Notes: generated by a model from the letters alone, not told the origin. A DNA stretch of 44,372 nt from an uncultured Bacilli bacterium (GCA_944358695.1 CALVRM010000001.1:1-44372), one strand, 5' to 3'. Positions 17,803-31,027 are shown, numbered from the stretch's first letter. A program made the numbers and translations.

Positions 17803-17823
17803 ACATATGTTTTGAACATATGT
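17803..17823. repeat. Left copy of 21-bp target duplication
   Basis: A perfect palindrome, arms ACATATGTT and AACATATGT around TTG, is identical to 29823-29843. One copy was probably the yutD terminator. IS1182-family elements are known for inserting at palindromes and duplicating them. Confidence 0.85.
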
Positions 17824-17866
17824 CAGACTGTTGACAAAAAAATGTTAATAGTCTTTTTATTTTAGG
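17824..17866 (+). repeat. Left IS end remnant
   Basis: About 40 bases align with the left end of the IS at 28490 (shared CAGACTGTTGACAAA and a later GTCTTTT), after which the sequence changes to conjugation-gene coding sequence. Only the terminus needed for transposase recognition is left. Confidence 0.65.
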
Positions 17867-17969
17867 AAAAATAGGTAATGCTATTTATAAAAATAAAATT
17901 CAATTTAAAAATTTAGAAAATACTAACAGAGAAATTTTAAAATCGTTAGGAGGAATTATGAATAAATAA
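17862..17969 (+). pseudogene. C-terminal fragment of the gene upstream of virB4 (PrgI-like)
   Basis: A frame reading L-G-K-I-G-N-A-I-Y-K-N-K and ending L-G-G-I-M-N-K runs into the virB4 start region. In conjugative elements a small PrgI membrane protein normally precedes virB4, so this is probably its tail, cut by the IS end. The PrgI label is from position only. Confidence 0.4.
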
Positions 17970-20364
17970 AAAAATTAATTTAAATTCCAAAAAACTAAAA
18001 CCACCAAAAACAATGTTAGATTTTATTCCATTTAAAGATGTGTGGGATAATTATGCATTTTTAGATAATGGAAATATTGTGGGAGGAATCAAAGTAGGCT
18101 CTATTAATTTGGAACTACTTTTTTTTGAAGAACAAAAAATCAAAGTAGAAAGGTTAAAACAGGTTTTAAATTCTATTGATTATCCTATTAAAATAATTAG
18201 TTATGATAAGCCAATTATTTTAGATAATAATTTAAATATATTAGGTGCTAAAATAAAAGTTGAGAAAAATAAACATAAAGAACAATTATTAGAAGAAGAA
18301 TATAAATATATTGAATATCTAAATGCGAATAAATATGCAGTAAATAGGGAGTTTTATCTAATAATAGAGGAAAGTAGCGAAAATGAGGCTTTGCTTAAAC
18401 AAAAACTTAATGATCTTATTCAAGAATTTAATTCAATGGGACTTATGAGTTCCATAGTTACAAGTGAAGAGTGGAGAGACTTGTTATTCGTTTCTTTAAA
18501 CCCGTGTTCTTCGCTCGACACCTTTAAAAAAGATGCTACAGGTATTACTAGGTCATTTAAAGATAAAATCGCCCCACATGGGCTTAAAACCAATGAAAAA
18601 GATGTCATGTTTGGTGATGCATATATTAGTGTTGTTATATTAGTAAGCTATCCATCTTTGGTTAACGTTGGATGGCTAGGAAGTGTTGCCAATGTTAACA
18701 ATACAAGGATGATAATGACTATTAGTCCGATGAATACTTTAGATATTAGCAATACTTTAAAAAAGAGCATTTCAGCTACTAAATCAAAAATGATTAATAT
18801 AGGCGATTATAATGACCAAATTATTTTAAATAATCAACTCGACGATTACATAGAATTAGTTAACTGAATTGATAGGGAACACGAAAAATTTTCTTTATTA
18901 ACAGTTAATTTTTTGTGTTATGGTAAAACAAAAGAGGAAATGGAAAATGCTAAAAAGGAATTAAAAAACACATTAAGTTCATATGGGCTTGGTGGTGCTG
19001 ATTTAATGTTTGAACAGGAAAAATCATTAAAGATGTGTTTTCCAACTTTATATAAAGAATTAGAAAAACATTTTGGATTACCAGTACCAATGCTAACAGT
19101 AGCATCTTCATTTCCATTTATATTTCAAAATTTACAAGATGATGGTGATTCTATGGTGCTAGGAACAAATTCTTTAAGTAGTTTGGTGTTTTTTGACTTA
19201 TGGAAAAGAACAGATAAAAGAAATAATTCAAACGCAGTTATTATCGGAAAATCAGGTAGTGGGAAATCCACATTGTTAAAGAAAATGATACGAGCAAATT
19301 GGTGCCGAGGCACTGACCTTTCTAACGATGGAAAACATAAACACACAAAAGTAATCGTAATCGATCCTGAAAGAGAGTATAAAGATTTATGCGAAAATTT
19401 AGGTGGTAGTTGGATTGACTGTGGAACTGGTATTTCAGGAATAATTAATCCACTAGAAGTTAGACAAGGATCTGACGAAGAATCAGAATCCAATTCCTCA
19501 AATAGTTTATCAAGACATTTCCAAACCTTTAGGACATTTATTAAATACTACTTTCAAGATTTAAGTGTTTATGAATTAACTAAATTAGAAGAAATATTAA
19601 TTGAAGTATATCAAGAAAAAGGAATAGATTTTGACACTGATTTATCTAAATTAAAAAGTAATGATTATCCTATAATGGAAGATTTATATAGAAAAGTAAA
19701 AGAAAATTTAGAAAATGCTAAAAAAGAAAAAAATTCTAGAAACGTTATTGAATCACTAGAGAAAATAGCATCAATGCTAAAAAGAGCTATCATTGGTGCC
19801 GACGCTAAATTATTTAATGGACATTCCACTATTAACGTTAGTGAATCATCAGACCTTATTGTATTAGATATTCATAGTTTAGTTGATTCAGATGATGGAA
19901 TATTAAAAACACAATTTTTTAATATATTATCGTGGTGTTGGAACGAAATTTCTCGCAATAGAGATGAACAAGTTATTTTAGTTGTGGATGAGGCACATTT
20001 ACTTATTGACCCAAACAATAAAGATGGCATAGAATTTTTAAAAAGAGCAGTAAAACGAATTAGAAAATATAATGGCTCTCTTTGGATTTCAAGCAAAAAT
20101 TTACTAGACTTTATCGCTGATGGAATCGAACGTTATGGACAAGTTATAATTGATAACAGCTCCTATATAATGGTAATAGGACAAGGCTTAAAGGAAATTG
20201 AAGCCGTTGCTAAAATGATTAATTTAAGCGATTCTGAAATTCAATTTTTAACTACTGCATCCCGTGGTAGAGGACTTTTTGTTATAGGACAAAGCACAAG
20301 AATGCCTATTGAAATTTTATTAAGAGAAGAAAAATTATTATTTGGTAAAGCAGGCGGAAGATAA
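17958..20364 (+). pseudogene. Broken VirB4/TraE-like conjugation ATPase
   Basis: Two ORFs in one frame (18013-18867 and 18913-20364) together make a VirB4-type ATPase of about 800 residues. Walker A is I-G-K-S-G-S-G-K-S-T and Walker B is I-L-V-V-D-E-A-H. Two lesions are visible. One extra T near 17967 disrupts the natural start (ATG 17958, after GGAGGAATT). A TGA at 18865-18867 interrupts continuous homology (E-L-V-N-stop-I-D-R-E-H-E-K), probably at a former Trp. The N-terminal docking domain lies before the stop and the complete ATPase domain after it. It would drive a type IV secretion channel if intact, and the absence of other transfer genes confirms decay. Confidence 0.85.
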
Positions 20365-20924
20365 TGAGTAAGGACGAGAAATTAATTTTCAAATTCCTTG
20401 CTCTTTCTTTTATTTCAATTCTTATAATAATGTTTTTTGTTATGACAACAAATATGCAATCAAGCGAAACTGACGAAGTAATATCAACTAAAGAATTGAA
20501 TAAACCTTTTAATTCAAAAATTAAATATATTATTACATCTGAATTCGGTGGTAGAAATAGTCCACTAGGTACAGGTGGGGAATTTCATAATGGGATAGAC
20601 ATCGCCATTCCAAAAGGTACTGAAGTATTGGCTAGTGGCTCTGGGTATGTAGTGTCATATAAATTTTCTAATCTTACAGGCGAAACAGTTATTTTAGAAC
20701 ATAATATTGATAATAAAGTATATAGGACACATTATTATCATATGCTTGAAAATTCAGTTGTAGTAGCTGAAGGTCAAAAAGTTAATGTAGGACAAAAAAT
20801 TGGCATAGTTGGGATGAGTGGCTCACAAGTCACAGGAGTACATCTACATTTTGAAGTGCGTACTTATAATGAAAAATCAAAAAAATTTACACCTATTGAC
20901 CCTAGTTATGTACTTCAAAAATAA
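20364..20924 (+). CDS. M23-family peptidoglycan endopeptidase of the ICE remnant
   Basis: This 186-residue protein has an N-terminal membrane anchor (about 9-29) and a LytM/M23 domain (about 55-180). The zinc ligands are visible: H-N-G-I-D and H-L-H-F-E. Its start overlaps the virB4 stop by one base, as in conjugative elements where a wall hydrolase opens the peptidoglycan for the transfer channel. It is shorter than the usual two-domain ICE hydrolases, lacking the second (NlpC/P60 or lysozyme) domain. It appears intact but is probably without its conjugation partners. Confidence 0.82.
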   Translation: MSKDEKLIFKFLALSFISILIIMFFVMTTNMQSSETDEVISTKELNKPFNSKIKYIITSEFGGRNSPLGTGGEFHNGIDIAIPKGTEVLASGSGYVVSYKFSNLTGETVILEHNIDNKVYRTHYYHMLENSVVVAEGQKVNVGQKIGIVGMSGSQVTGVHLHFEVRTYNEKSKKFTPIDPSYVLQK

Positions 20925-21004
20925 AAACATATTATATTTTGTTGATTAAATACATTCTATAATATAAATAAATATGTTAAAATATATATTAAGTGGGTGA
21001 TACT

Positions 21005-22984
21005 ATGAACATTAGTAATAAAGACATGGAAAAAGAAAATACCTATTTAGCAACAGTAAAAAAGATTGCTAGTGATTATATTGACGAAATCGATATTAAA
21101 GTAGAAAAAGAAAAGCAGGATATTTTTGAAATAAAAAAATATATTTGGGACGAATGCAAAGCAATGAGTGAGTTAGAGTATGGGAATTTGTTAAATGACA
21201 CTGATGCAAAAGTTAAAAGAACTAACGATCAAATTATGCAAGCATTCAGATATAAAAAAATAATTGATAATGCCTATTTTGGTAGAGTAGATTTCAAAAC
21301 TGATGATGACCTTATTAATGTATATATAGGATTACATGGATTACTTAGCGATAGTAAGAATTATATTTTTGACTGGCGAGCACCCATTTCCAGTTTATTT
21401 TATGATTATACTGTTGGTAGTGCAGAATATGAAGCTCCTTTAGGAAAAATAAAAGGTAATATTGAACTCCGAAGGCAATACAAAATTGAGTCAGGAAATA
21501 TTAAAAGAATAATTGAAATCGATATTAATATTGATGATGAAATACTTCAAGAAGTTTTATCTTCTAATTCTTCAGATAAGATGAAAAATATTGTAACAAC
21601 AATTCAAAGGGAACAAAACGCAGTAATAAGAAATACCCAAGATAAATATTTAATAGTACAAGGAGTAGCAGGGAGTGGAAAAACATCAGTTGCATTACAC
21701 AGAATTGCATATTTATTATATAAAGAAGAAAACTTAAATTACAATAATGTCCTTATCTTTTCTCCTAATAATGTTTTTAGTGAATATATTTCGGACGTAT
21801 TACCAGAACTAGGGGAAGAAAATGTTTTGAATACTACATTTAATGATTTAGTAAAATCTTATATTAAAAAACAAAAAAACATTGAAACATTTTCGGATTT
21901 TCTTGAACGCAAATATGAAAGTATAAATAATAATGGTAATGAAGATTATATTTATACAAAAACCACACTAGATGAATTTATAAAACAATTTTTAAGTAAA
22001 TCTATATTAAAATATGGAATAACAATAAACGGTCTTTATTTTAATCAATTTGAATTAAATGAGTTATTAACTAATAAATATAAAAAACTACCATTTTTAG
22101 ATCGTGTTGATAACATTGCAGAATATATTTGTAACAGTGTTAATATTCCAGTAAAAAAGAATAAAACAAAAATTAAAAATAGATTATTAAAAGAAATAGA
22201 TATGGAACTTAATCCAATTAATATTTATAAACAATTTTTAGAATCTAAAAATAATAATAAAGATATAAGTAAAAAGATTTATTATGAGGATTTAGTTAAT
22301 ATTATATATATTTATTTTGAATTAAACGGATATCCATATAACACTAATGTTAAACATATAATTGTTGATGAAGCTCAAGATTATTCAAAACTTCAATTTT
22401 TAATATTAAAGAAGATTTTTCCATATGCATATTTCACAATACTTGGGGATATTAATCAAGCTATAAATCCTTATTGCGAATATAATTCGCTTGAAGAGAT
22501 TAATTCTATTTTTGATGATAAAGCCCGCTATATTGAATTAAGCAAAACTTATCGTTCTAGTGCTGAAATTATTGATTTTTCTAATAAAATTTTAGACATA
22601 AATCATGTTAGTTCAGTTAGAGGCGAAAGTGGATATCCAGTAGTTTCAAAAAACGAAAAAATAACGTTTAAAAGTATAATAAATGATATTATTAAAATGC
22701 AAAAAGATAATATGAAAACTATTGCTATAATTACAAAAAATGAAAAAGATGCTAAAAGTCTGTATAAAAAAATTAAAGAAAATGATGCTGATATTGAATT
22801 TACTTTAAATACAATATCAAAAGATTGTGTGGCTATTTTACCATCTTATATTGCAAAAGGGCTAGAGTTTGATGGTGTGATTGTATGTAATGATTTGGAA
22901 AATAAATACACAAGCCAGGAAAAGAAATTGTTTTATGTGGTATGTACGAGAGCACAGCATCAATTAATTATTTATAATAATTAA
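21005..22984 (+). CDS. helD: HelD-like RNA polymerase-associated helicase, copy 1
   Basis: This 659-residue UvrD/HelD-type ATPase has an N-terminal coiled-coil arm (about 1-75), then the HelD-specific block F-D-W-R-A-P-I-S-S-L-F-Y. Walker A is G-V-A-G-S-G-K-T-S (about 219-227). A divergent insert (about 290-430) is followed by V-D-E-A-Q-D-Y-S (motif II), G-D-I-N-Q-A (III), T-Y-R-S-S (IV), G-L-E-F-D-G-V (V) and V-C-T-R-A-Q-H-Q-L (VI). HelD removes RNA polymerase from DNA and recycles it; related HelR proteins protect against rifamycins. The ATG at 21005 is chosen because GGGTGA precedes it. It is a close paralogue of 26383-28473. Confidence 0.88.
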   Translation: MNISNKDMEKENTYLATVKKIASDYIDEIDIKVEKEKQDIFEIKKYIWDECKAMSELEYGNLLNDTDAKVKRTNDQIMQAFRYKKIIDNAYFGRVDFKTDDDLINVYIGLHGLLSDSKNYIFDWRAPISSLFYDYTVGSAEYEAPLGKIKGNIELRRQYKIESGNIKRIIEIDINIDDEILQEVLSSNSSDKMKNIVTTIQREQNAVIRNTQDKYLIVQGVAGSGKTSVALHRIAYLLYKEENLNYNNVLIFSPNNVFSEYISDVLPELGEENVLNTTFNDLVKSYIKKQKNIETFSDFLERKYESINNNGNEDYIYTKTTLDEFIKQFLSKSILKYGITINGLYFNQFELNELLTNKYKKLPFLDRVDNIAEYICNSVNIPVKKNKTKIKNRLLKEIDMELNPINIYKQFLESKNNNKDISKKIYYEDLVNIIYIYFELNGYPYNTNVKHIIVDEAQDYSKLQFLILKKIFPYAYFTILGDINQAINPYCEYNSLEEINSIFDDKARYIELSKTYRSSAEIIDFSNKILDINHVSSVRGESGYPVVSKNEKITFKSIINDIIKMQKDNMKTIAIITKNEKDAKSLYKKIKENDADIEFTLNTISKDCVAILPSYIAKGLEFDGVIVCNDLENKYTSQEKKLFYVVCTRAQHQLIIYNN

Positions 22985-23017
22985 TCAAAATAATATAACC
23001 AGAAACAGCAATAAATG

Positions 23018-23046
23018 TTGACATTTCAGGGGTTATGTGTTATTGT
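23018..23046 (+). promoter_or_regulatory. Promoter of the precursor peptide
   Basis: TTGACA (23018-23023), a 17-base spacer and TATTGT (23041-23046), followed by a strong ribosome site AAAGGAGG (23054-23061) and the peptide ATG at 23071. Confidence 0.65.
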
Positions 23047-23070
23047 AGCACTTAAAGGAGGCACATATCT

Positions 23071-23193
23071 ATGAAGATTCTTAAAGTAAATACTGCTAAA
23101 AATAGCATCAACGATTTAGCGGATGCTAAAAAAATGACTCTTGCTAATGCACTACTTGATGCTTGTGGTTGTACTGGTAACGGTCAGTGCTAG
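23071..23193 (+). CDS. 40-residue Cys-rich RiPP precursor peptide
   Basis: A 40-codon gene with strong promoter and ribosome site precedes a radical SAM/SPASM enzyme. Residues 1-30 look like a leader: charged and helical, with D-L-A-D-A-K-K and A-L-L-D. The C-terminal ten residues A-C-G-C-T-G-N-G-Q-C hold all three Cys and several Gly/Asn, a typical core for Cys-linked modification (sactipeptide or ranthipeptide style thioethers). No double-Gly protease site is obvious. It is separated from the maturase by a terminator, as is common where much more precursor than enzyme is needed. I cannot assign a known precursor family. Confidence 0.85.
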   Translation: MKILKVNTAKNSINDLADAKKMTLANALLDACGCTGNGQC

Positions 23194-23195
23194 TT

Positions 23196-23226
23196 AAAAG
23201 AGTGAAGTAGTGACTTCACTCTTTTT
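23196..23226 (+). terminator. Attenuating terminator between precursor and maturase
   Basis: AAAAGAGTGAAGT (23196-23208) and ACTTCACTCTTTT (23213-23225) form a perfect 13-bp stem with an AGTG loop and a T-run. No new promoter is obvious before the maturase, so it is likely reached by read-through. Confidence 0.88.
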
Positions 23227-23248
23227 CTAAATTAAAAAGGTGGTAAAG

Positions 23249-24517
23249 ATGTATAAAGTAAGTAATTATAATATAATAAAAAAATATGATGATAAAATAA
23301 TAGTATATAATTCATATACTAAAGCAAGTTTGTTTTTAGACAAAGATTCTTCAACAAAAGCTTTTGAGGATATTGAAGAATTTAATAGGTTAGATAAAGA
23401 AACACAAAAAGTATTAATTGATAATGGTTTTATTATTGATAGTGACAGGGATGAGTTTGCAGAAATAAAATATATGTACGAGAAAAAGTATTATGATAAA
23501 ACATTTTTAAATGTAGTTTTAGTGCCATCATTGGCTTGTAATTTTGCTTGTCCATATTGCTTTGAAAAAGATTTGGAGTGTGGCAAACAAAATATAAAAG
23601 AATATTTTTCAGCATTAAAAAAATTTGCTAAAAATAATTTTAAAAATTATCAATGTATACAAATAAGTTTATTTGGTGGTGAGCCATTATTATTTGCGAA
23701 AGATTGTATAGAGTTTTTAAAATGGGTAAGTGAAGATTCCAAAGAACAAAAATACGATTATTTTAGTTCTATAGTTACTAATGGATCACTTTTAACCGAA
23801 AATATTTTAGATGAACTTTTACAACATGATTTAAAAATGCTACAAATAACTATCGATTCAGATAAAGAAACACATGATTTAACTAGACGATTTAAAACAG
23901 GACAACCATCATTTGAACTTTTAATTGATAAAATTTCAATGATTATCAATAAAACAAAAAATTATGATGATTTTAATTTTGTATTAAGGATTAACTTATC
24001 AAATACTACAGTAGAAAAAGTAAAAGATTCATTAGAGTATATTAAGCCTGAATATCGTTCCAAAGTTAATTTATTAATACGTTCAGTTTATAATACTCAT
24101 GCCTATAAAGATAATAATAAAAATGACAATTCACAAATTGATGATTATTTTGAAATGGGGAGAGCTTTAGGGTTTTCAATATTTCAAGAAAGTTTCCAAT
24201 ATCAAAGTTGTGAAGCCTGTGCTGATGATAAATTTTTCTATCTAATGCCTGATTTGACTATGTGGAAATGTATTAATGATTTAAATTATGATGATGCTTG
24301 TATAGGTAATATTGAAAAAGATGGTAGTGTAAAAATTAATCCTAGTAAAAATGTTAAATGGTCTAAACACGCGATGTTTACATTTAATGATGAAGAGTGT
24401 AAAAATTGTAAGTTACTTCCTGATTGCTATGGTGGATGTATATTGAAAAAATGCAAAACTTGTACAAAACAATGTCGTCCGTTTGAAATGACTAGTATGC
24501 TTCATATTTTTAGATAA
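23249..24517 (+). CDS. Radical SAM/SPASM peptide maturase
   Basis: This 422-residue protein has an N-terminal region (about 1-85) of the kind that holds the leader-binding element in peptide maturases. The radical SAM motif C-N-F-A-C-P-Y-C (CxxxCxxC, about residue 98) is followed by F-G-G-E-P and a barrel. The C-terminal SPASM-type region (about 310-415) has at least ten Cys, including C-E-A-C, C-K-N-C, C-Y-G-G-C and C-K-T-C, enough for two auxiliary 4Fe-4S clusters. Such enzymes form thioether or C-C links in small peptides, so the neighbouring Cys-rich precursor is the obvious substrate. The start at 23249 fits AAGGTGG better than the upstream GTG at 23240. Confidence 0.9.
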   Translation: MYKVSNYNIIKKYDDKIIVYNSYTKASLFLDKDSSTKAFEDIEEFNRLDKETQKVLIDNGFIIDSDRDEFAEIKYMYEKKYYDKTFLNVVLVPSLACNFACPYCFEKDLECGKQNIKEYFSALKKFAKNNFKNYQCIQISLFGGEPLLFAKDCIEFLKWVSEDSKEQKYDYFSSIVTNGSLLTENILDELLQHDLKMLQITIDSDKETHDLTRRFKTGQPSFELLIDKISMIINKTKNYDDFNFVLRINLSNTTVEKVKDSLEYIKPEYRSKVNLLIRSVYNTHAYKDNNKNDNSQIDDYFEMGRALGFSIFQESFQYQSCEACADDKFFYLMPDLTMWKCINDLNYDDACIGNIEKDGSVKINPSKNVKWSKHAMFTFNDEECKNCKLLPDCYGGCILKKCKTCTKQCRPFEMTSMLHIFR

Positions 24518-24543
24518 TAATTTTCTGTATAGGGGGTAGTGGT

Positions 24544-25413
24544 ATGAAATTAAATATCTGTGAACATGAATTGTTAAATAATTTACAGCAACAAGGAAAA
24601 AGAAAATTTTATAAAATTGGTTTTACAAAGGCTATAATGGATGTAGGAAACTTTAGAAAATTCCAAGAAGATTCAATATTAATTACTACTCATAAAAGTT
24701 TCCAAGATATAGAAATGTTATTAGTCACTGATGGTATGGGAGGATTAGAAAATGGCGCTCGTGCTAGTCGATTATCTGCCCAACATTTAATGAAATGGTT
24801 TCAACAATTGGAATTTGATGATTTAAAAACAATTAGTAATTTAAAACCGCAATTCTCATCTTTTGTTAATAAATTAGATGGAATTATTAGAGAAAAGTGT
24901 GGACAAGGTGGTACAACAGTAGTTTGTGCTTTCGTTGTAGGTGATTTTACCTTAGTTGCAAATATCGGTGATTCACGTGCATATATTTATAAAGATGGAA
25001 GTCTAACACAGATAACAACTGACCATTCCATTACACAAAATCTTTATGTTGATGGAATTATAGAGAAAGAAGAACATATAAGATTCCATAAGAAAAATAA
25101 TTTAATTTTATCAAGGCTTGGTTGTGAAAAGAAATTGTTGGAATTAGATTTTTATGAGATGCCTACTGCAGATATGGAAAAATTATTGTTATTTTCCGAT
25201 GGAGTAACTGACTGTGTTTCGCAAAAAAGATTGCATGAATTAATTAGCCAAAGTTCTGATGATGAACTTTGTCACAAAATTATTGATGAGGTTTTAAGTA
25301 TTGATTCATTTTCATATAATTTAGATTGTGATGATTATTATGATAAAATATCTGCAGGAAAAGATAATGCATCAATTGTATATAAAAAGAATAGGAGAAT
25401 AAAAAATGACTAA
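24544..25413 (+). CDS. PP2C-family serine/threonine phosphatase
   Basis: This 289-residue protein contains the PPM motifs Q-E-D-S, V-T-D-G-M-G-G, G-G-T-T-V-V, I-G-D-S-R-A-Y, T-D-H-S, F-S-D-G-V-T-D and K-D-N-A-S-I-V. The metal-binding Asp residues are therefore all present. An unusual N-terminal 35 residues precede the domain. It lies 26 bases after the maturase with ribosome site AGGGGG, and its end overlaps the next gene by 8 bases. In this operon it may dephosphorylate the peptide, the maturase, or a target of the neighbouring kinase; none of this is shown by the sequence. Confidence 0.88.
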   Translation: MKLNICEHELLNNLQQQGKRKFYKIGFTKAIMDVGNFRKFQEDSILITTHKSFQDIEMLLVTDGMGGLENGARASRLSAQHLMKWFQQLEFDDLKTISNLKPQFSSFVNKLDGIIREKCGQGGTTVVCAFVVGDFTLVANIGDSRAYIYKDGSLTQITTDHSITQNLYVDGIIEKEEHIRFHKKNNLILSRLGCEKKLLELDFYEMPTADMEKLLLFSDGVTDCVSQKRLHELISQSSDDELCHKIIDEVLSIDSFSYNLDCDDYYDKISAGKDNASIVYKKNRRIKND

Positions 25414-26275
25414 AATTCAAGAGAAATGGCGAGATAGTTTAACCGATATAAATGATGTTCAATTTAAAAACATTGAGTTTGAGAAAATAATTAGTTATCC
25501 GCATGCCGGAAATGATGTTTTTGAGTGTATTGGTAAATATAAAGACAAAAACATTAATTTTATCTTTAAAAGTGAAAGAGGAAAGTTTGCGGACTTTTCT
25601 AATGAAATTGAAGTTTTAAAGGCAATACACAAAAAGTTTCCTGTTCCTGCTGTTATAGAAAGCGGGAAAATTAATGAATATACTTATATTGTTCTTTCAA
25701 AAATAGAGGGTGAAAAACTTTCAGATATTTTTAAAGAAGATATAGAGGCAGATAAGGATAAATATTTATATTTATATGGTCAGGAATTAGCTAAAATTCA
25801 TCAATTAGATATAGATTGGAAACGTGCCAAACTACGTGATATAAATGATTATCCAAATACTGATTATTATAAGGAGTTAGATAACTGGGAAAATAAAATT
25901 GTCAGCTATTTAAAAAATACAAAACCGGCAATTGATTATAATACTTTTATTCATGGAGATTTCCATTATGGAAATATACTTTGGGATAATTATAAAATAA
26001 CAGGTATTTTAGATTGGGAATATGCTGGTAAAGGTTTCAAGGAGCAAGACATTGCTTGGGCATTAATATTAAGACCAGGGCAAAAATTTATGGATAATTT
26101 TGAAAATTTGGAATCATTTCTAGCAGGATATAAAAGTATTAATAATTATGATGAAGATAAATTGAAGTGGTGTTTAGTAAATGGATCCATGCATTTTTAC
26201 TTAATGAACAAGAAACAAAATAATATTGAATATTTAGAAAAATTAAAAGAAATCATTAATTCTTTAATAGACTAA
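25406..26275 (+). CDS. APH-fold phosphotransferase (kinase)
   Basis: This 289-residue protein has the aminoglycoside phosphotransferase/choline kinase fold. The catalytic loop H-G-D-F-H-Y-G-N-I-L is at about 180-189, D-W-E-Y-A-G holds the metal-binding Asp, and an N-lobe E-x-E-V-L-K segment and I-V-L-S-K-I-E-G hinge are visible. It overlaps the PP2C gene by 8 bases, so the two are tightly coupled. APH-fold kinases phosphorylate small molecules, and in class V lanthipeptide clusters they act in peptide modification, so the peptide's Thr35 is a possible target. Drug resistance is possible but nothing specific supports it. Confidence 0.85.
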   Translation: MTKIQEKWRDSLTDINDVQFKNIEFEKIISYPHAGNDVFECIGKYKDKNINFIFKSERGKFADFSNEIEVLKAIHKKFPVPAVIESGKINEYTYIVLSKIEGEKLSDIFKEDIEADKDKYLYLYGQELAKIHQLDIDWKRAKLRDINDYPNTDYYKELDNWENKIVSYLKNTKPAIDYNTFIHGDFHYGNILWDNYKITGILDWEYAGKGFKEQDIAWALILRPGQKFMDNFENLESFLAGYKSINNYDEDKLKWCLVNGSMHFYLMNKKQNNIEYLEKLKEIINSLID

Positions 26276-26276
26276 T

Positions 26277-26307
26277 AAGATACGTTGCATTAGGCAATGT
26301 ATCTTTT
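26277..26307 (+). terminator. Terminator ending the peptide operon
   Basis: AAGATACGTTGC and GCAATGTATCTT pair over 12 positions with one G-T wobble, followed by a T-run. This separates the peptide operon from the second helD gene. Confidence 0.8.
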
Positions 26308-26327
26308 ATTATATAGCGATTAATAGT

Positions 26328-26356
26328 TTGTATTTTTTTATCTTTTGTGTTATTAT
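26328..26356 (+). promoter_or_regulatory. Promoter of the second helD gene
   Basis: TTGTAT (26328-26333), a 17-base spacer and TATTAT (26351-26356), then CAAGGGGG and the ATG at 26383. Confidence 0.6.
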
Positions 26357-26382
26357 ATTACTATTTTCAAGGGGGAATTGAT

Positions 26383-28473
26383 ATGACAAAACTTAATCAA
26401 ACATTAGAAGAGGAAAAACAGTATTTACATGAAGTAGAAGAGTTACTTTGTAAAGAAATAGAAACATCAGAATTAAATATTGAAGAAAAGCAAAAAAGAA
26501 CAGAAGAATTTAAAAAATTTATATGGGAATCAAGAGGCGAACTTTCTGATTATGAATATAATATGCATTTCAATGAAGTTGATGGTGATACGGATATTAT
26601 TAATGATAAGATAAAAAAACTTTTAAACTTCAAGAGAGCAATTAACTCGCCTTATTTTGGTAGAGTAGATTTCCAATTTGGCAGCCGAGTATTACCAGTG
26701 TATGTTGGTATTACATCTTTAAAAAAAGATAGACAAAATTATATATTTGACTGGCGAGCACCAATTTCAAGTTTATTTTATAATTACACTGTTGGTGATG
26801 CAGAATATGAAGCGCCAAAAGGAACTATTAAAGGAGAGATACTTACTAGACGCCAGTACAAGATTGAAGACGGTGTACTTAAAAGAATGATTGAAAGTGA
26901 TATTAATATTGATGATGAAGTCTTACAAGAAGTATTGGCAAATAGTTCTTCAGATAAGATGAAAAATATTGTAACAACAATTCAACAAGAGCAAAACGAA
27001 ATTATCAGAAATAATTTGGATGAACATTTAATAGTACAAGGAGTAGCAGGAAGTGGAAAAACATCAGTTGCATTACACAGAATTGCCTATTTGTTATATC
27101 AAAATGAAGATTTAAATTCAAATAATATTTTAATCTTTTCCCCTAATGAAGTCTTTGCAGAATACATTTCTGAAGTATTACCAACGCTAGGTGAGGACAA
27201 TGTATTAAATACAACATTTTCTGAATTAGCCAAAGAATATACAAGAAAAAATAATAAGATTCAAACTTTTACTGAATTTATAGAAGAATATTATAATAAT
27301 GATTTTGACGAATTTAGTTTTGAAATTAATAAGTTCAAATTATCAGATTCTTTTAAAAATGCTATAGACCAATTTTTAGAAAAATATGTTATGATGCATA
27401 ATTTAAATAATGATATTGAAATGGTCGTTAATCGTTCAAAAACGATTGTAATTGATAAAGATGATGTAAATGATTTCTTTAATAATCGTTATAAAAGATT
27501 ACCAATAAAAGAAAGATTAAATTTAATCAGTGAAAGAATTTGCGATTTAGAACAAATAAGTTATTCTAAATGTGGAGCAAGCATTAGAAATGCTATTATA
27601 AATGAAATGGATATTACTTTAGATGAAAAAAAATTATATTTTGAATTTTTAAATAGTGAAATTTTTACAAATAATTTTGATTTTGACACGGAACCATTTA
27701 ATGTTAAAAGCTCTAACATAAAGTACCAAGATTTGATTGGAATATTATATTTAGGTTTTGAATTAAATGGATATCCATATAATTCAAAAGTAAAACACAT
27801 TGTAATCGATGAAGCCCAAGATTATTCTGAATTACAATTTTATATTATAAAAAAGATGTTTCCAAAGGCTACTTTTACAATATTAGGTGATATAAATCAA
27901 ACTGTTAATCCATATTATAAATATGATGATTTATCTACACTTTGGGATATTTTTGGTGATGAAAGCGAATATTATGAGTTGTCAAAATCTTATAGATCTA
28001 GTCCTGAAGTAATTGATTATGCAAATGCAATTTTAGGATTAACAGATAAGCCATCAGTTAGACATGAATCAAATTTACCTATTCAAAATATAACTGAAGA
28101 CAATAATGTTGCATTACAGTTAAGTCAAAGTATAGATAGTATGAGAAATAATGGATTAAAAAGAATTGCAATAGTAACTAAAAATAATACAGAGGCTTTA
28201 GAGATTATGGAACAATTAGAAAATATTGTTGATGGTGTATCTTTAGCTACCGAAAATATGTCTAATGATAATGTGATAATAGTTCCATCCTATATTGCGA
28301 AAGGATTAGAATTTGATGGCGTAATTCTATATACAAAACCAGATAATTGCTATTCTGAAATGGAAAAAAATTTGTATTATGTAGTATGTACAAGAGCACA
28401 ACATCAATTAATCATTTATAATCAACCACAATTAACTTTAGATAAACCTAAAACCCTAAAAAAAGAAAAATAG
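26383..28473 (+). CDS. helD: HelD-like RNA polymerase-associated helicase, copy 2
   Basis: This 696-residue paralogue of the protein at 21005 has the same motif order: F-D-W-R-A-P-I-S-S-L-F-Y, Walker A G-V-A-G-S-G-K-T-S (about 220-228), D-E-A-Q-D-Y-S, G-D-I-N-Q-T, S-Y-R-S-S, G-L-E-F-D-G-V and C-T-R-A-Q-H-Q-L. The helicase halves are nearly the same, while the middle insert (about 295-460) and the Lys-rich C-terminal tail differ, the regions expected to touch different polymerase sites. The ATG at 26383 is chosen for its AGGGGG ribosome site. It has its own promoter, separate from the peptide operon. Confidence 0.88.
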   Translation: MTKLNQTLEEEKQYLHEVEELLCKEIETSELNIEEKQKRTEEFKKFIWESRGELSDYEYNMHFNEVDGDTDIINDKIKKLLNFKRAINSPYFGRVDFQFGSRVLPVYVGITSLKKDRQNYIFDWRAPISSLFYNYTVGDAEYEAPKGTIKGEILTRRQYKIEDGVLKRMIESDINIDDEVLQEVLANSSSDKMKNIVTTIQQEQNEIIRNNLDEHLIVQGVAGSGKTSVALHRIAYLLYQNEDLNSNNILIFSPNEVFAEYISEVLPTLGEDNVLNTTFSELAKEYTRKNNKIQTFTEFIEEYYNNDFDEFSFEINKFKLSDSFKNAIDQFLEKYVMMHNLNNDIEMVVNRSKTIVIDKDDVNDFFNNRYKRLPIKERLNLISERICDLEQISYSKCGASIRNAIINEMDITLDEKKLYFEFLNSEIFTNNFDFDTEPFNVKSSNIKYQDLIGILYLGFELNGYPYNSKVKHIVIDEAQDYSELQFYIIKKMFPKATFTILGDINQTVNPYYKYDDLSTLWDIFGDESEYYELSKSYRSSPEVIDYANAILGLTDKPSVRHESNLPIQNITEDNNVALQLSQSIDSMRNNGLKRIAIVTKNNTEALEIMEQLENIVDGVSLATENMSNDNVIIVPSYIAKGLEFDGVILYTKPDNCYSEMEKNLYYVVCTRAQHQLIIYNQPQLTLDKPKTLKKEK

Positions 28474-28489
28474 AAAAAGAAATATATGT

Positions 28490-29822
28490 CAGACTGTTGA
28501 CAAAGGTCAAAGGTCTTTTCATTTATAAAAATATGTAGTATAATGAATATGCGAGATAAAACTTTATTCTAACCAAATAAAAGTTACTTACAATCTCGTT
28601 TTTTTGTGCTAAAAATGGTATAATATAAGTGGTTAGAGTAAAGAACAGTAGATGATAAATGTAATATTATAGTAGATGCTTATGTTACAGAAGGAAATGT
28701 TCATAATTCAAAGCCTTATAATGAAAGAATAGATTATATAGAAAAACATATAAATTTAAAATAAAAGAAGTTGCTTTAGATTCAGGTTATGATTCATTAG
28801 ATATTAAAAAACATTTATTAGATAAAAATATATTTGGAGTAATTGGTCATAGAAGATATGGAAGCAAAGAATCGAGAAAAGAAAAATATAAATATATATA
28901 TGATGAAAATTTAAATGTTTACGTTGAGAAAGAAACTGGTGAAGTAATAGAAAATGTTGATACCAAGCATATTAAAGAGAGTTTGACAGACCCAGAAAGC
29001 GGTTGTTTTCATAAAGGAGAAAAAGAAAAATGTTTCGCATATACCCATCAAGTATTTTGTGATAAAAACGGATTTGTAATAGCCAAAACTACAAATCCAG
29101 GGAATATTCATGATAGTGTAGCATTCTTTTAAGCATATAAAGTTTTAAATGAGAAGTTTAAAGATAAAATAAAAAATGTATGTTTAGATGCAGGATATGT
29201 AACACCCGCAATATGTAGAGAAATCATAATAAAAGGCCATATACCACTAATGCCATATAAAAGACCGATGACTGGTAAAGGGCTATTCAAAAAATATGAA
29301 TATGTATATGATGAATATTATGATTGTTATATATGCCCAAACAATGAAATATTATCATATTCAACCACAAATAAGAATGGATATAAACAGTACAAATCAA
29401 ATCCAGATAAGTGTATAACGTGTCCTTTAAGAGAACAATGTACAAAAAGTAAGAATCATCAAAAAGTAGTTACTAGACATATATGGGAAAAATATAAAGA
29501 ACAAGCAAATGGAAATAGATATACCCAAAATTGGAAAGATAATTATCCACTTCGAAAAGAAACCGTTGAAAGAACATTTGGAGATTGTAAAGAACAACAT
29601 GGCTTAAGATTTACTAGAGTTCGTGGTTTACTAAAAAATGAGCAAAATGCCACGATGATTTTTGCATGTCATAATTTAAAGAAAATGGCCAATTGAAGAT
29701 GGAAATCATCACCTAATATTGACTTAATTAAGCCTATTTTCAGAAAAATATTCCAATTTCTAAATTTTATCATGAAAAAAGTAGTATATCCAATTTGAGT
29801 ATACTACTTTGTCAACAATCTG
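28490..29822 (+). mobile_element. Degenerate IS1182-family insertion sequence
   Basis: CAGACTGTTGACAAA (28490-28504) and TTTGTCAACAATCTG (29808-29822) bound a 1333-bp unit, shorter than typical members, with a broken transposase inside. An inverted repeat AAAGTAGTATA/TATACTACTTT lies just inside the right end (about 29778-29810) and CGAGAT/ATCTCG with a T-run (28552-28607) lies inside the left end. It has no matching target duplication of its own. Confidence 0.8.
28651..29696 (+). pseudogene. IS1182-type transposase remnant, apparently chimeric
   Basis: The intact C-terminal half (29250-29696) has the IS1182 features C-P-N-N, C-x2-C-P-L-R-x2-C, H-Q-K-V-V-T-R-H, and the terminal R-K-E-T-V-E-R-T-F-G-D-C-K block with its catalytic Glu. 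Upstream, homology continues through T-D-P-E-S-G and G-N-I-H-D-S, interrupted by a TAA (29130-29132) and a frameshift near 28762. The first ~90 codons (G-N-V-H-N-S, A-L-D-S-G-Y) repeat the same part of the protein seen again at G-N-I-H-D-S and C-L-D-A-G-Y, so two related copies seem to be fused. The N-terminal DNA-binding part is missing. Confidence 0.8.
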
Positions 29823-29843
29823 ACATATGTTTTGAACATATGT
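29823..29843. repeat. Right copy of 21-bp target duplication
   Basis: Identical to 17803-17823, directly outside the right inverted repeat. Followed by TTTT, so with the T-run it would form a weak intrinsic terminator. Confidence 0.85.
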
Positions 29844-29937: not shown

Positions 29938-31027
29938 ATGGAAGTAAAGGAACTGATTAATATTTATGGAATTTATCTAACTCGCATCAATGATTTATGG
30001 AGGTCACTTTGACCCTGATGGAAAAAGAAAACGCATAGAGGAACTACGTGAGATAATGGATAAGCCTGACTTTTGGAATAATAAAAAGTATAGTGAAATG
30101 GTGATTGCGCAGTTCAATGAACTAAAAACATTATTAGAAAAAACAAGTAAATTAAAGTCAGAAATTGAATTTCATTTAGAAACTTTAAAGGAAGCATCAC
30201 AAGATGATGAAGCAATGCTTTTTGCTTTAGAGGAAAAAGATATAATTGGTAGTAATTTGGATGATTTAGAATTACAGATACTTTTGAATGGTGAATATGA
30301 TTCTAATGATGCTATTTTAGAAATTCATTCTGGTGCTGGCGGGACTGAAGCGTGTGACTGGGCTAATATGCTTTATAGAATGTATGCTAGATGGTGTGAC
30401 AAGAAAGGCTATAAAATTGAAGTTGTAGATGAACTTCCGGGAACTGAAGTAGGAATAAAAAATATTTCAATGATTGTTAAAGGTCATAATGCTTATGGTT
30501 ATCTTCAAGGTGAAAAAGGAATACATCGGTTAGTTAGAATTTCTCCATTTGATAGTAATTCACGAAGACACACTTCATTTGCTTCAGTTGAAGTTACTCC
30601 GGTTATCGATGACCATGGGGAAATTGAAATAGATGATAAGGATTTGCGAATTGATGTTTATCGAAGTACTGGTGCCGGTGGTCAAGGGGTTAATACGACT
30701 GATAGTGCTGTTAGAATTACACATTTACCAACAAAAATTGTTGTAACTTGCCAAAATGAGCGAAGCCAATTGCAAAATAAAGAAAGATGTATGCAAATAC
30801 TTAAAAGCAAATTATATGAGCTTCAGAAAAAAAATCAGGAAGCGGAACTTAAAAAAATCAAAGGTGAACAAAAAGAAATTAACTTTGGTTCTCAGATCCG
30901 CAGTTACATTATGTGCCCTTATACTCTAGTTAAGGATCACATTACTAATACTGAAGAGGTGAATGTCGGTAAAGTACTAGATGGTGATATTGATAGATTT
31001 ATAAATGCTTATTTAAAGGGGAAATGA
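29938..31027 (+). CDS. prfB: Peptide chain release factor 2, with programmed +1 frameshift
   Basis: Translation starts at ATG 29938 (ribosome site AAGGAGG) and runs 24 codons to CTT TGA C (30007-30013). An internal Shine-Dalgarno-like TATGGAGG lies just before the shift site, as in the E. coli and Bacillus prfB regulatory frameshift. After slipping +1 over the T at 30010, the long frame continues to 31027 (about 363 residues in all). The UGA-recognising S-P-F tripeptide (I-S-P-F-D) and the catalytic G-G-Q (G-A-G-G-Q-G-V-N) are present. Low RF2 favours the shift, so the protein limits its own level. The annotated coding join is 29938-30009 and 30011-31027. Confidence 0.97.

Follow-up and report, generated by a model that had tools for sequence, protein, structure and literature searches.

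The window analysed here, a stretch of 44,372 nucleotides from an uncultured Bacilli bacterium (GCA_944358695.1), carries at positions 20993-28473 six intact genes on the plus strand, which encode in this order a HelD-type protein (HelD1), a precursor peptide, a radical SAM/SPASM maturase, a PP2C phosphatase, an APH-fold kinase and a second HelD-type protein (HelD2), together referred to as the cassette (Table 1). This bears out the first-pass annotation, which had read the region as a six-gene peptide-maturation operon. The maturase contains the motif CNFACPYC and the SPASM motif CX2CX5CX3C, the phosphatase is of the Stp1 protein-phosphatase type as judged by model match, and the catalytic motifs of both the phosphatase and the kinase are intact. 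The precursor had been called Cys-rich, a label that is correct in a mild sense only because the peptide has three Cys residues. A promoter before and a hairpin after the precursor gene are a usual route by which more precursor than enzyme is produced. TTGAC boxes similar to the promoter-like site of the window are present at several other cassette loci, and a hairpin lies 3' of the precursor gene at nearly every bacterial locus, with sequences differing between loci.

Table 1. Features of the cassette and its surroundings in the window, and loci of the second HelD-bearing peptide operon on other contigs.
Feature	Position	Strand	Remarks
Left 21-bp palindrome copy, ACATATGTTTTGAACATATGT	17803..17823	.	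identical copy at 29823-29843
IS1182-type left end without transposase	17824..17838	+	CAGACTGTTGACAAA; recurs at further IS copies in this genome
VirB4-like conjugation ATPase, broken in two	18013..20364	+	each half matches NF045975
M23 peptidase of the same conjugative remnant	20364..20924	+	PF01551, E 4e-24
HelD1	20993..22984	+	ATG at 21005 likely start; NF041464, 481 bits; 6wvk, E 3e-101; predicted N-terminal coiled coil
Promoter-like site before precursor	23018..23046	+	TTGACA-17-TATTGT, TG before -10; consensus match only
Precursor peptide, 40 aa, core LDACGCTGNGQC	23071..23193	+	kept in nine genomes and in an archaeal contig
Hairpin between precursor and maturase	23197..23225	+	terminator- or attenuator-like
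Radical SAM/SPASM maturase	23240..24517	+	ATG at 23249 likely start; PF04055
PP2C protein phosphatase, Stp1-like	24544..25413	+	PF00481; metal-site residues invariant across 8 loci
APH-fold kinase	25406..26275	+	PF01636, E 2e-23; HGDFHYxN and LDxE conserved
Terminator-like hairpin between APH and HelD2	26277..26305	+	count of such hairpins not above chance expectation
HelD2, the operon's conserved HelD	26347..28473	+	ATG at 26383 likely start; NF041464, 481 bits
Decayed IS1182 element	28490..29822	+	NF033551 on 29250-29696; both ends present
Right 21-bp palindrome copy	29823..29843	.	identical to left copy
Second HelD-bearing peptide operon	L149:5081-10646, L186:7051-12620		also L187, L188, L189, L190, L191, L192, L194

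The cassette lies in a 12 kb segment (17803-29843) before prfB, which is bounded by opposed IS1182-type ends and the identical 21-bp palindrome and which also holds the broken VirB4, the M23 peptidase and the decayed IS1182 element. In several relatives of the window's genus orf17506 stands directly before prfB without the intervening 12 kb, and the segment is therefore an insertion, recognizable as IS1182-bounded by its inverted IS ends, the repeated target and the uninterrupted site in relatives. The 21-bp palindrome was not seen in the empty orf17506-prfB intergenic stretch of these relatives. The mobile element proposed in the first-pass annotation is thus present in the window and was seen only there, as nothing comparable was noticed in the reading-frame lists of the other cassette loci. 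Further IS1182 copies of the genome (L209, L210, L212, and L213) adjoin other palindromes, apparently hairpins. The gene prfB (29939-31027) appears to keep its programmed frameshift site CTTTGAC, so that the frame listed from 29990 is only the second part of the gene.

Searching for close relatives of the maturase yielded seven genomes, including that of the window, among 385 genomes of the order, two more among 386 genomes of the family and no new one among 395 genomes of the class, the genomes searched being mostly fragmentary drafts. The order precursor-maturase-PP2C-APH is found in all nine genomes (the window's and eight others of the same family); in one the operon is divided between two contigs (G213) and in another the PP2C gene is frameshifted (G335). 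A tenth locus (G407), found via its APH gene, is cut by a contig end and has a frameshifted HelD gene. Genomic sites and flanking genes both differ from genome to genome, and a gene order preserved in nine genomes despite these differences is not chance clustering. The conjugation gene remnants within the IS1182-bounded insertion could suggest chance neighbours moved together by a transposon, but the same order in eight other genomes at other sites refutes this explanation, which we regard as extremely improbable. A HelD gene follows APH in nine of the ten loci, the G407 fragment included, as compared to HelD proteins above the model cut-off in 22 of 60 family genomes sampled, a background that is itself enriched for cassette carriers; the adjacency therefore exceeds chance by far, despite the common descent of the loci. 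The exception is G001, where the locus is complete without HelD and where no full-length HelD was found in the genome. The link of helD to the precursor-maturase pair, for which the first-pass annotation had proposed a co-occurrence check, thus stands for bacteria, and it is further backed by HelD lineages specific to the cassette and by a second HelD-bearing peptide operon (both described below); it fails at G001 and at an archaeal locus. The distribution is patchy, with the cassette in about 1-3% of family genomes and none found elsewhere in the class. None of 80 related loci in genome contigs combines PP2C, APH, and HelD, viral contigs contained neither a maturase relative nor the core pattern, and phage and plasmid records held only distant maturases, with at most 32% identity among the matches listed.

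The core DACxCTGNxxC is invariant in all ten precursors compared, including the archaeal one, and the conserved pairing of the precursor gene with an adjoining radical SAM/SPASM enzyme in nine genomes and one archaeal contig marks the system as a putative operon for a ribosomally synthesized, modified peptide (RiPP). Judged from the sequence, the three invariant Cys residues may form Cys thioethers (ranthipeptide or sactipeptide). A peptide that binds a single conserved target would be expected to vary as little as this core does. The archaeal locus, on a Nanoarchaeota contig (L036:1760-3381), encodes an 80-aa precursor ending in LDACGCTGNGSCN and a maturase of 35% identity; PP2C, APH, and HelD are absent nearby, and a gene for an archaeal-type XerA recombinase adjoins. 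It is the only one of the 80 related loci that shares the core, and the maturase was found in none of 144 other genomes among the relatives of this archaeal genome. The locus demonstrates that peptide and maturase can occur with no HelD in their neighbourhood. Together with the three invariant Cys, the same core in a contig devoid of neighbouring HelD, PP2C, and APH would agree with a metal, redox or signalling role of the peptide, which HelD joined for other reasons, e.g., keeping the locus transcribed. However, HelD has been retained although the proteins have diverged widely (about 45-50% identity), and it is joined to the second peptide operon too, so that such a role appears unlikely.

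HelD, a general transcription factor, both clears RNA polymerase and protects it. Both HelD proteins of the window score above the NCBIfam HelD_BACSU cut-off (481 bits vs. 419) and match the solved HelD 6wvk by sequence with E values of about 1e-100. The predicted fold of HelD1 has its best match among solved structures in the HelD of the RNA polymerase complex 6wvk, and HelD1 is predicted to keep the N-terminal coiled-coil arm, at the tip of which an acidic residue is nearly invariant. The score above cut-off over the whole length, the secondary-channel arm and the ATPase motifs place the proteins in HelD class I, and as members of this family the cassette HelDs would bind and recycle RNA polymerase. 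No further HelD above the cut-off is encoded in the window's genome. A tree of the family's HelD proteins unites the majority of stand-alone chromosomal copies in a single group (100/100) that excludes the cassette copies, and one genome (G283) has one copy of each type. In the window's genus HelD1 and HelD2 form sister groups (support 96/99, weaker at 81/30 with more rows), a pattern most readily explained by duplication inside the operon lineage. The pair of flanking HelDs described in the first-pass annotation is real for this genus and confined to it, the upstream HelD1 occurring only there while the place of HelD2 is general. HelD1 relatives at contig ends in G108 and G317, as well as a long-branched, operon-free copy in G023, are possible lone copies. 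In G317 the HelD1 relative (88%; L158:2-2689) adjoins nrdG at the contig end, and the nrdG of the window lies a few kb before the insertion.

The second HelD-bearing peptide operon was first met in G204, where a radical SAM enzyme other than the cassette maturase lies beside HelD, and ten loci were found in a search of 385 genomes. It encodes a precursor of 44 aa (two with an extension) that ends in GYDGCGTHTHK and has a near-invariant core, a 533-aa maturase that stays below the family cut-off of every model listed, a 209-aa P-loop protein, HelD, a free-standing C39-like protease and a HAD hydrolase, the latter with some rearrangement of its position. HelD is present in all nine uncut loci. 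In the family, HelD is thus linked with two distinct peptide systems, which suggests RNA polymerase as the likely target. The assignment of the P-loop protein as a kinase was dropped, its predicted fold having no clear match. Some genomes additionally encode a tetrapyrrole-methylase-like protein in this operon, and in L186, L190, and L192 an inverted repeat, ACACAACATAGG / CCTATGTTGTGT or close to it, flanks the precursor gene on both sides.

An alignment-based search for the kinase matched 10 of 213 genomes, four with APH in operons and six with APH lacking the rest of the operon. Among these six, one is broken, one is distant (36% identity) and one lies at a contig end; with the exception of the broken and the distant copy, lone APH genes keep both kinase motifs. 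Lone and operon copies are intermixed in a poorly resolved tree. One lone relative (L231:5622-8523) is located near a cytosine DNA methyltransferase-like gene. Unlike APH, no close maturase was seen alone in bacteria, and this asymmetry is the pattern of resistance genes. HelD and APH are candidate immunity genes, to which the lone APH genes fit; these may also be what is left of operons that decayed. Proteins can be substrates of APH-fold kinases, and together with the Stp1 type of the PP2C this is compatible with APH and PP2C acting not on the peptide but on proteins, for which HelD, the maturase and RNA polymerase are examples. However, APH is found alone in genomes without HelD and maturase of the cassette kind (e.g., G093), and we consider protein substrates quite unlikely.

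As the first-pass annotation had pointed out for the window, the cassette has no exporter or peptidase: none is present in it at any locus, and the exporter in the operon that is characteristic of bacteriocins is missing throughout. The main rival explanation, an intracellular regulator, is favoured by this absence. The modified peptide would stay inside the cell and adjust transcription or growth of the host in a stress response or an abortive defence, with APH and PP2C setting its activity and HelD resetting RNA polymerase. The pairing of a kinase with a phosphatase, the near-invariant core and the presence of ABC transporters in the Clo7bot locus examined are in line with such a switch, whereas the very patchy distribution, the kinase genes alone in other genomes and the absence from viral contigs are not. 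Moreover, PADLOC models detected no known anti-phage defence system, only generic helicase and radical SAM similarity, which leaves the suggestion of an intracellular defence island unsupported. Overall, we judge an intracellular switch to be rather unlikely.

Our own reading, held tentatively and at somewhat less than an even chance, is that the cassette serves both to make a ribosomal peptide that acts on RNA polymerase and to protect the producing cell from it. The precursor would be made in excess and its C-terminal core would be modified by the radical SAM/SPASM enzyme, probably by forming thioethers at its three Cys residues. The mature peptide, presumably released from the cell, would inhibit RNA polymerase, and HelD might protect or free the polymerase via its secondary-channel arm, i.e., by target protection. 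APH would phosphorylate the peptide and thereby inactivate it, the invariant Thr of the core being a candidate site, and PP2C may remove the phosphate and render the peptide active again. The position of HelD after APH in nine of ten loci despite differing sites, the separation of cassette HelDs from the stand-alone clade (100/100) with one of each in G283, HelD in 9/9 uncut loci of the second operon, the lone APH genes and the near-invariant core all argue for such a function at the level of sequence, the predicted retention of the HelD arm suggests it from modelling, and published precedents for HelD, ComG, and RiPPs suggest it by analogy. Against it stand the lack of a conserved exporter or leader peptidase, the G001 and archaeal loci without HelD, the frequency of HelD in the family (22/60 genomes) and the possible origin of lone APH genes from former operons. 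It is conceivable, though we hold this with more doubt than belief, that HelD-linked radical SAM peptides constitute a new class of ribosomal peptides directed at RNA polymerase, which arose two or more times, each time with its own maturase and precursor, and in which a dedicated HelD guards the target, with activity set by a kinase and a phosphatase in the case of the cassette.

The reason why some bacteria keep extra HelD copies has been called unclear (PMC8655204), and dedicated copies in peptide operons would partly answer this question; in the open-access literature searched, no description of HelD as part of a peptide operon was found. If our model is true, radical SAM peptides would supply new inhibitors of RNA polymerase, and HelD or APH genes standing alone could be interpreted as resistance genes against such peptides. 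As both cores are short and almost fixed, co-expression offers a direct test of the idea.

Among known systems, the maturases of the CefB, TIGR04463, and Clo7bot families (ranthipeptide-like RiPPs) resemble the cassette maturase in fold, N-terminal domain, SPASM cysteines and an adjoining small Cys-containing precursor, but their cut-offs are not reached (178/600, 171/525, and 135/600 bits, respectively), and the cassette precursor matches no family. While the Clo7bot locus examined contains many precursors and ABC transporters, the cassette has one precursor and no ABC transporter. Class I HelD shields RNA polymerase from rifampicin via its N-terminal arm (PMC12802891). The cassette HelD is similar to B. 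subtilis HelD, of class I, and to HelR in being full-length with arm and ATPase motifs, but differs from them by residing in a peptide operon; its clamp-arm (middle) region spans about 119 residues between matched blocks, compared to 196 in B. subtilis HelD. Lasso systems depend on lasso enzymes and frequently include an exporter. The cassette relies on radical SAM chemistry, in contrast to the lasso chemistry of microcin J25 and capistruin. These are likewise small ribosomal peptides with RNA polymerase as target, which for the cassette is only proposed, and ribosomal peptides other than that of the cassette are known to block the secondary channel of RNA polymerase (PMC8183687). The cassette kinase shares the APH fold with aminoglycoside phosphotransferases and with ComG, an APH-like kinase that inactivates the peptide antibiotic corramycin and is likewise encoded within a peptide-producing operon (PMC10996006). 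However, corramycin is made by a non-ribosomal route from a cluster without a suitable phosphatase, whereas the cassette combines a ribosomal precursor with a PP2C phosphatase.
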